From Glaciecola amylolytica (GTDB lineage Bacteria; Bacteroidota; Bacteroidia; Flavobacteriales_D; Crocinitomicaceae), in contig CP034120.1 of NCBI GenBank assembly GCA_003856375.1, positions 4,211,501 to 4,275,500 of the forward strand: DNA of 64,000 nucleotides. Direction: 5' to 3'. This document shows positions 31,695-59,570 of the stretch, in pieces (the stretch's first letter is position 1; every line of letters begins with the position of its first letter). The position numbers and the translations under genes are program-made. The notes under the pieces were generated by a model. The model ran no database searches. It saw only the letters and a list, made by a program, of their open reading frames with translations, and was not told the origin of the DNA.

Positions 31695-31827
31695 TTTACC
31701 ACAAATGCGCAAATGTTGGAGGTGCTTACCAGTCGCCTCGATCTCTTACAAAAACGGATAAATATTACTTATTTGGTTCAAAGGCGAGTGCGATAGCCGA
31801 GCTAAAAATTTGTGTATTTGCGGTAAA
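31695..31827. repeat. Gene-free inverted-repeat element related to the GxxExxY cassette
   Basis: TTTACCACAAATGCGCAAAT at the left end is the inverted counterpart of the right end (ATTTGTGTATTTGCGGTAAA). Reading inward from the right, the complement continues ..TTTTTAGCTCGGCTATCGCACTCGCC, which matches the left arm of the cassette at 59019-59059 in about 32 of 41 positions. The element is 133 bp, contains no gene, and fills the gap between two convergent genes. Confidence 0.6.
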
Positions 31828-52600: not shown

Positions 52601-52697
52601 CCACAAATGCACAAATGTAAAGGGCGCTTACCGGTCTCCCTTCAAAGTATAAAAGAGACGAGACCGTAAGGCGTCTCAAAAATTTGCGTATTTGTGG
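52601..52697. repeat. Gene-free 97-bp inverted-repeat element related to the GxxExxY cassette
   Basis: The left end CCACAAATGCACAAATG and the complement of the right end (CCACAAATACGCAAATTT) match with few differences; further in, GCGCTTACCGGTCTC faces ACGCCTTACGGTCTC. The ends carry the same CCACaAAtnCnCaAAt phrase as the elements at 31695 and 59019. It lies between convergent genes directly after the terminator and holds no gene. Confidence 0.55.
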
Positions 52698-59018: not shown

Positions 59019-59570
59019 GCCACGAATTCACGAATTTTTTGCTCGGCTAACGCGTTCGCTTTTTGAGCAAGTATAACTTTAAAGAACAAAACGTTTGTAT
59101 TTCAAGCTATCTTCATTGAAGTTGACCAACAAACCAAGCGGCAAATCAGAAACAGCTAAATAATTAATAACCTGTGCATAATGCGACTTTGCAAGCTGAC
59201 TGACCGATTTGACTTCTAAGATTATAGAATCGAAAACTACAAAATCGGCATAAAAATGATGAGGAAGAATGATATCCTTGTAATTAACCTTGAATTCCTT
59301 CTCACGTGTAAATGGGATTTTCTCTTCTTTAAACTCATATTCCAAAGCGTCTTTATAGACGATCTCAGAAAAACCATGTCCCAAGTTTCGGTGGACTTCC
59401 ATACAGAGACCAATTATTTGATAGGCCTCATTTTCTAGTACTAATTGTTTCATTTACTTTAAGATAGTCAAAAAGTTCATTTCAAACAAAAGAATATTTC
59501 ACTTTATTTTAAGAGACGTTTCAGAAGTTTGCGAGCGCGTTAGCCGAGCCCTAATTCGTGAATTCGTGGC
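59019..59570. mobile_element. Inverted-repeat-bounded cassette carrying a GxxExxY gene
   Basis: The left arm (59019-59059) reads GCCACGAATTCACGAATT then TTTT then GCTCGGCTAACGCGTTCGC. The complement of the right arm (59531-59570) has the same two blocks with spacer AGG and one T/C change, giving 36 of 37 matches outside the spacer. The 552-bp unit holds one gene (59079-59453) and no transposase. Flanking AA dinucleotides lie on both sides, too short to prove a target duplication. Two related gene-free elements lie at 31695 and 52601. Confidence 0.65.
59079..59453 (-). CDS. GxxExxY protein, PD-(D/E)XK nuclease-like
   Basis: The 124-residue protein contains GFSEIVY (the GxxExxY motif) at residues about 27-33, preceded by IGLCMEVHRNLGHG. 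The segment HFYADFVVFDSIILEVKSV gives Asp and Glu-x-Lys (D-X(n)-ExK), the active-site pattern of PD-(D/E)XK nucleases. The gene occupies almost all the interior of the inverted-repeat cassette and is the only cargo. The protein family is widespread in Bacteroidota and has no agreed function; nuclease activity is inferred. Confidence 0.85.
   Translation of the reverse strand: MKQLVLENEAYQIIGLCMEVHRNLGHGFSEIVYKDALEYEFKEEKIPFTREKEFKVNYKDIILPHHFYADFVVFDSIILEVKSVSQLAKSHYAQVINYLAVSDLPLGLLVNFNEDSLKYKRFVL

Follow-up and report, generated by a model that had tools for sequence, protein, structure and literature searches.

Inverted arms of short repeated words around GxxExxY nuclease genes: a possible REP/RAYT-like system of dispersed repeats

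Genes of the GxxExxY family are commonly found between inverted arms made of short repeated words, these words vary together with the lineage of the encoded protein, and gene-less palindromes of the same layout are dispersed through the genome of Glaciecola amylolytica, short copies of this kind also occurring in many other genomes that have the gene. The reading that we favour, and to which we give slightly less than an even chance, is that gene and arms form one unit of a selfish dispersed-repeat system similar to that of REP elements and RAYT. The enzyme and the repeats taken together suggest a kind of selfish DNA that has not been described. The window, that is, the whole stretch of 64,000 nucleotides of G. 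amylolytica DNA that was analysed, carries one gene-holding unit and two gene-less elements, with the following features:

59019..59036, + strand: outer box of the left arm, two tandem CACGAATT words, 18 of 18 positions matching 59553-59570
59041..59059, + strand: inner box of the left arm (GCTCGGCTAACGCGTTCGC), 18 of 19 positions (95%) matching 59531-59549
59079..59453, - strand: GxxExxY gene, 124 aa, PD-(D/E)XK nuclease; intact ORF, assigned by profile and by a predicted fold like those of Cas4 and lambda exonuclease
59531..59549, - strand: inner box of the right arm, paired as inverted repeat with 59041-59059
59553..59570, - strand: outer box of the right arm, paired as inverted repeat with 59019-59036
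31699..31823, no strand: gene-less palindromic element, intergenic, with CACAAAT words and inner boxes, laid out as the gene unit
52601..52697, no strand: gene-less palindromic element, intergenic, with CACAAAT words, inner boxes and a hairpin fold

A preliminary description of this DNA had claimed that the arms match in 36 of 37 positions around a spacer of 3-4 bases, that a GxxExxY gene with the PD-(D/E)XK pattern is the only gene inside, and that the unit has no transposase. The three observations hold: the outer and inner boxes add up to the claimed match, the only other ORF of at least 60 codons is a 60-codon antisense frame, and TIGR04256 and PF13366 are the only profiles whose cut-offs are reached. 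The arm word of this unit is CACGAAT. In the 4.6 Mb genome of G. amylolytica, the 16-base core of the arm matches exactly only at the window unit; with up to two mismatches there are five sites, two of them in the unit, and one for the reversed control. The GxxExxY gene is present in a single copy. Within each single arm of the unit, folding into a hairpin was no better than in shuffled sequences.

The protein matches TIGR04256 (E 4e-43, 146.5 bits, curated cut-off 35) and PF13366 PDDEXK_3 (E 1.1e-37, 129.4 bits, curated cut-off 22), and residues D70, E80 and K82 are invariant across 48 aligned sequences, so that the PD-(D/E)XK residues are intact. A structure was predicted for it with a pLDDT of 96.7. 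The search with Foldseek gave as nearest solved folds SSO0001, which was the best PDB match and which we take to be a Cas4, and lambda-type exonucleases; the matches to the 4ic1 chains (E 6.9e-5 to 2.3e-4, query TM 0.59-0.61) assign the prediction to the RecB-like folds, and no solved structures related by sequence were found. Cas4 proteins hold an Fe-S cluster with four cysteines, and since the window protein has one cysteine in its 124 aa, it would lack a cluster of the Cas4 type. It does carry a motif similar to QxxxY. By its residues and modelled fold the GxxExxY protein plausibly cuts DNA. No joining activity is known for it, and we know of no strand-transfer activity in a PD-(D/E)XK nuclease.

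Arms are not peculiar to the window. In the scan of named genomes, in which near relatives are over-represented because the best 80 of 351 relatives were kept, six loci were dropped for short or N/masked flanks; inverted repeats with a score of at least 14 within 300 nt of the gene were present in 55 of the remaining 74 loci, whereas control positions taken from these loci gave 5 of 1558. This answers the check proposed in the preliminary description, namely whether such arms flank GxxExxY genes more often than chance. The loci of the genus gave 35 of 49 (one of 50 was dropped; control 0/144), and a separate draw from the phylum gave 15 of 30 (control 1/90), and chance is excluded as the explanation of arms across the family. 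As inverted arms are common at GxxExxY loci, the window gene is a typical case.

At most loci, each arm is a string of two to four inward-pointing 7-base words, one per 8-11 bases, with the consensus CRCNRAK (roughly C-A/G-C-N-A/G-A-T/G); CACAGAT, CGCTGAT, CACTAAT and CACAGAG are variants found at other loci. The samples of 74 and 49 loci overlap, and the removal of 17 duplicates among 161 rows left 144 distinct units. Within 250 nt of the gene, inward strings were present on both sides in 86 of these units, on one side in 39 and on neither in 19. The expectation that other GxxExxY loci would have arms is thus correct for most of them, but not for the last group, and we count both the bare and the one-sided units against our reading. 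Inward strings reach a density of 9.9 per kb in the 50 nt next to the gene and drop more than forty-fold, to 0.07-0.23 per kb, at distances above 500 nt, and the reversed word pattern never exceeded 0.47 per kb at any distance (150 units, before the stricter removal of duplicates to 144). Close to the gene, outward strings are enriched too (3.1 per kb, against 0.05-0.12 per kb far off), which likewise counts against us. Arms were found in distant bacteria as well, in Scalindua (L050, L071) and in bins of Lentisphaerae (L078), Ignavibacteriales (L034) and Chlamydiota (L081). One further GxxExxY gene (L136) has arms of TGATT-type words, outside CRCNRAK, and other word types were seen at L113 and L145.

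The words follow the protein. In the 86 two-sided units, the left and the right word agree at the last letter in 86 cases, at the second in 82, at the fifth in 79 and at the fourth in 63, in all four variable positions above the highest of 2000 shuffles. When placed on a protein tree, which was a quick one (124 columns, 86 rows, several long branches), the last letter requires 4 changes, against 16.5 in shuffled data (lowest of 500 shuffles: 12). For the fifth, second and fourth letters, the changes were 11, 7 and 23, against 25.9, 15.0 and 35.6, each below every one of the 500 shuffles. The clustering of letters on the tree partly reflects near relatives, and because these inflate the figures, the co-variation supports recognition of the word by the protein but does not prove it.

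The association was also observed at the level of genomes. GxxExxY genes were found in 154 of the 296 genomes sampled in the phylum (151 above the curated cut-off, three below), often with several matches each. Among genomes rich in the motif, with at least ten pattern matches, 18 of 19 have the gene, against 136 among the 277 remaining genomes; the p of 4.8e-5 ignores kinship and is too strong, because a single genus supplies 10 of the 18 motif-rich carriers. Pattern counts under 4 were entered here as below threshold. Counted by genus, by hand, nine of ten motif-rich genera have the gene. The exception is a genome (G082) with 12 arm word-pairs and no GxxExxY profile match, where the gene may have been lost or another enzyme may be used; this case of motif without gene also counts against our reading.

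Gene-less palindromes were searched in whole genomes with a word-pair pattern that covers AT-ending words at period 8. In the G. amylolytica genome this pattern gave 57 word-pairs, against 0 for the reversed pattern. Of these, 26 make up 13 convergent gene-less palindromes of 68-130 bp and two belong to the GxxExxY unit; the remaining 29 have no exact partner, several showing a degenerate one by eye. Only the pair that encloses the GxxExxY gene has its members 200-1500 nt apart. Over 14 genomes of the genus, the counts ranged from 1 (G046, which lacks the gene) to 169, against a control of 2 (G061), while GxxExxY matches ranged from 0 to 13 per genome, fragments of broken genes included. Two genomes, G030 and G065, have the gene and nevertheless only 6 word-pair matches each, and these low counts, together with that of G046, weigh against our reading. 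So does the fact that the commonest gene-less copies in G. amylolytica are of the CACAGAT type, a word different from that of its one gene; no GxxExxY gene with matching arms is present in that genome.

The layout of outer and inner boxes is common to the gene-less elements and the gene unit. Between some gene-less copies the likeness begins and ends precisely with the outer boxes (for example, 94% over 90 nt), and between others it runs further into the flank; further examples were collected as loci L171-L190. Single-strand folding was better than in shuffles for the 52601 element (z -4.3), the 31699 element (z -2.8) and L171 (z -5.2).

The GxxExxY unit occupies a shared junction between the Lrp and YtxH genes in six of the 12 genus genomes that have the anchor gene. 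In five of them, including G. amylolytica, its orientation is that of the window, one copy (G064, L010) having a stop codon. In the sixth (G030, loci L012 and L092), the gene points the other way with respect to Lrp and YtxH, with arms on both sides that are degenerate (inverted-repeat score 10). The left inner box can be recognised at L010, L011, L091 and L093, and is degenerate near Lrp in G030. Thus, relatives with the gene at the same place keep the arms, although degenerate in G030; their lack had been named in advance as an outcome contrary to the idea of a mobile unit. Remnants that look like deletions were seen in G063 and G068, and nothing in G060; G061 and G067 have another neighbourhood, and in G065 the contig ends with the unit not in view. 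At this one site compared, no alternation between arm-only and gene-filled states was found, nor an intact gene-less palindrome in any species. With six genomes carrying the unit, one flip and two remnants, its probable history is an early presence in this part of the genus, followed by inversion in one genome and decay in two. The window unit is therefore old and not a fresh insertion. In two loci (L169, L170), a palindromic string of AGACTT/AGACTA-like words lies downstream of Lrp, at the place that the GxxExxY unit has elsewhere.

The gene-less elements come and go between species. At the 52601 site, compared in ten genomes of the genus, the full element is present in G. amylolytica (G000) and G064, partial or changed forms in G068 and G063, and a remnant in G010; no element was recognised in the stretch read of G066, G060, G059, G030 and G065. 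At the 31699 site, CACATA-type repeats stand instead in G010, G064 and G068, short element-free spacers are found in G066, G060 and G059, no element was recognised in G030 and G063, and the sequence of G065 is cut. The CACATA words in this spacer (L258, L259, L260) look as if the site had been reused by another word type.

Search for traces of insertion gave no signal of target-site duplication. The longest direct match between flanks averaged 4.36 in 89 gene units (shuffled 4.21, sd 0.11) and 4.15 in 13 gene-less elements (shuffled 4.05, sd 0.20), with element ends set by the word pattern alone. A direct 6-mer or longer is common to the flanks in 15 of the 89 gene units, and the mean shows no excess over shuffles. 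This lack of signal, and that of a base-exact pair of sites before and after insertion, are counted against our reading. The preliminary description had regarded the window unit as a small selfish or non-autonomous mobile unit. A selfish nature would fit the commonness of arms, the lack of a transposase, the variable number of GxxExxY matches per genus genome and the dispersed palindromes. What does not stand is that it should be fresh or non-autonomous, as six genomes share its site and no target-site duplication is signalled; the gene-less palindromes are better candidates for non-autonomous copies.

As for enzymes and cargo other than GxxExxY, among the inward pairs in the loci 71 span the gene (without an upper limit of span), 73, none of them longer than 200 nt, do not, and the two others, of 200-1500 nt, hold a GxxExxY frame. 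No other cargo was found between arms, either in these loci, where its absence is biased because the gene served to select them, or in the word-pair list of G. amylolytica, which is free of that bias. No DDE transposase sharing the ends was found among the arm pairs of the G. amylolytica genome or of the loci. RAYT (Y1_Tnp) was considered as mobiliser and rejected, as AT-ending word strings do not occur as a pair at any of the 23 Y1 loci of the genus (at contig edges, the gene limits are approximate). Two of the Y1 loci (L208, score 29; L212, score 22) have long inverted repeats of a different, REP-like kind, and L194 scores 14.

We infer that the nuclease mobilises the elements, by binding and cutting arms in a folded intermediate that host enzymes copy. 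In such a process the nuclease, or a complex that contains it, would recognise the strings of 7-base words, perhaps together with the inner box. Recognition would take place in a folded single-stranded or cruciform state, which is open to inverted arms during replication, and the nuclease would cut at the folded arms. The folded segment could then be copied elsewhere by host replication and repair, in the way commonly assumed for REP elements and RAYT. The gene-holding unit would be the autonomous form, and the gene-less palindromes of about 70-130 bp would be non-autonomous forms carried in trans. A wider proposal, which seems to us possible but rather doubtful, is that of a bacteria-wide class of selfish DNA whose sole protein, a PD-(D/E)XK nuclease like Cas4 and lambda exonuclease, would read helically phased 7-base iterons, spread, with neither transposase nor integrase, both the unit that encodes it and dozens of gene-less palindromes in each genome, and co-evolve with its target word; a large part of the intergenic palindromes dispersed in Bacteroidota and beyond would then have their missing partner in GxxExxY.

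Part of the same evidence can be read otherwise. Some other enzyme could spread the palindromes, with GxxExxY as a passenger or domesticated gene kept, for example, for defence or repair, where RecB/lambda-exonuclease-like folds such as that of this protein are common. Several genomes of the genus have retained the gene at the window locus, its copy in Sphingomonas is flanked by fabD and fabG at distances of 33 and 2 nt, and G. amylolytica has palindromes of another word than the arms of its gene. But neither other cargo between arms nor genus Y1 transposases with such arms were found, the arm words track the GxxExxY tree, and arms can be made out by eye even at the Sphingomonas copy; we therefore take a passenger role to be unlikely, if worth keeping in mind. 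A homing type of spread, in which the palindromes are target sites of other origin and repair of the break made by the nuclease copies the gene in through the shared arms, would account for the layout of the unit, that of a gene-less element with the gene in its middle, and for the lack of target-site duplication; the weak Foldseek match of the protein to the homing endonuclease I-Bth0305I (rank 30, E 0.11) would also agree with it. But the one gene site compared offers no intact gene-less palindrome in any species, its remnants in G063 and G068 look like deletions, and the words of the unit differ from those of most G. amylolytica palindromes, so that homing appears to us distinctly unlikely.

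Two other possibilities refer to the arms rather than to the gene. If they were terminators or structural repeats, mere places where GxxExxY genes are tolerated, it would be easy to understand that both palindromes of the window are intergenic and that a terminator-like run of T immediately precedes the 52601 element and also its counterparts in G064, G068 and G063. However, by eye, the flanks of the 13 gene-less pairs tend to be T-rich or mixed before the element and A-rich after it, which is not the order of a stem followed by T, and neither the drop in string density away from the gene nor the agreement of the words with the protein tree fits such a role, which makes it very improbable. Hardly any weight is left for an invertible switch, with the arms as recombination sites and the gene as phase-variable. 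The reversed gene of G030, its arms kept on both sides, is what a switch would produce, but ordinary recombination between 40-base inverted arms is enough for one flip, five genomes have the same orientation, the unit contains no invertase, and the gene-less palindromes have nothing to flip.

The nuclease-driven unit that we favour works like the REP/RAYT and IS/MITE pairs, but its arms do not enclose the enzyme by which either is defined. As in the REP/RAYT case, one gene stands between inverted repeats (here on both sides in the 86 two-sided units), the genome also has gene-less palindromic copies, frequently as convergent pairs separated by tens of bases, and the repeat sequence varies with the protein lineage. 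It differs in that the enzyme is of the PD-(D/E)XK and not of the HUH/Y1 type, in its tandem 7-base words plus, within the genus, an inner box, in place of a tagged stem-loop, and in the 1 to 169 word-pair matches per genus genome. The RAYT side of this comparison is partly general knowledge. The other part comes from the text available of PMC3733652, where the stem-loop tag of REP is GTAG or CGTC; by eye, the ends of our elements are CCRCNRAT strings and do not show this tag. Like IS/MITE pairs, a gene-bearing unit goes with short gene-less copies of similar ends, and the MITE papers, in the portions available (PMC9769881, PMC4596501), deal with elements that have IS-like ends. Unlike them, the unit has no DDE transposase inside, no signal of target-site duplication, and iteron-like strings as arms.

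With regard to the protein, Cas4, lambda-exonuclease and RecB-type nucleases share with it the predicted fold, the conserved D and E-x-K and the QxxxY-like motif; different from Cas4, the GxxExxY protein has 124 aa and one cysteine and stands alone between arms. Rpn (YhgA-like) proteins are also of the PD-(D/E)XK kind, and we know of no terminal repeats of this type for them. They belong to another Pfam family, and the profile matches of the window protein include no Rpn. Rpn has been linked to DNA mobility (PMC5350276, as far as the available text goes). In the literature covered, from which most subscription journals are missing, and within the text available of its papers, GxxExxY appears only as a gene label with no role assigned, and no paper was found that links GxxExxY, PDDEXK_3 or TIGR04256 with repeats. 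Now that GxxExxY can be tied to a repeat that is easy to recognise and whose recognition word can be read, its biochemistry is open to direct testing, and a class of intergenic palindromes gains a possible explanation. Were the nuclease to drive the palindromes by itself, this would be a route of DNA mobility without transposase or integrase.

Finally, possible carriers were considered. No relative was confirmed among viral contigs, in a query with a single protein that reaches close relatives only, and none was found in phage records. Among plasmid records, eight have distant GxxExxY copies, and in two of these loci (L266, L269) the inverted repeats score at least 14. By eye, there is an 11-base pair in Treponema, same-direction strings in Fusobacteria and Prevotella, no arms in Persicobacter and Gemmatirosa (gene limits estimated), and arms in Sphingomonas. 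In the latter (L270, gene at 992-1420) one arm lies in front of the gene and the right one inside the ORF, in its last codons, where it is translated as the C-terminus. The left arm of this copy has matches in 17 places on six replicons of that species.
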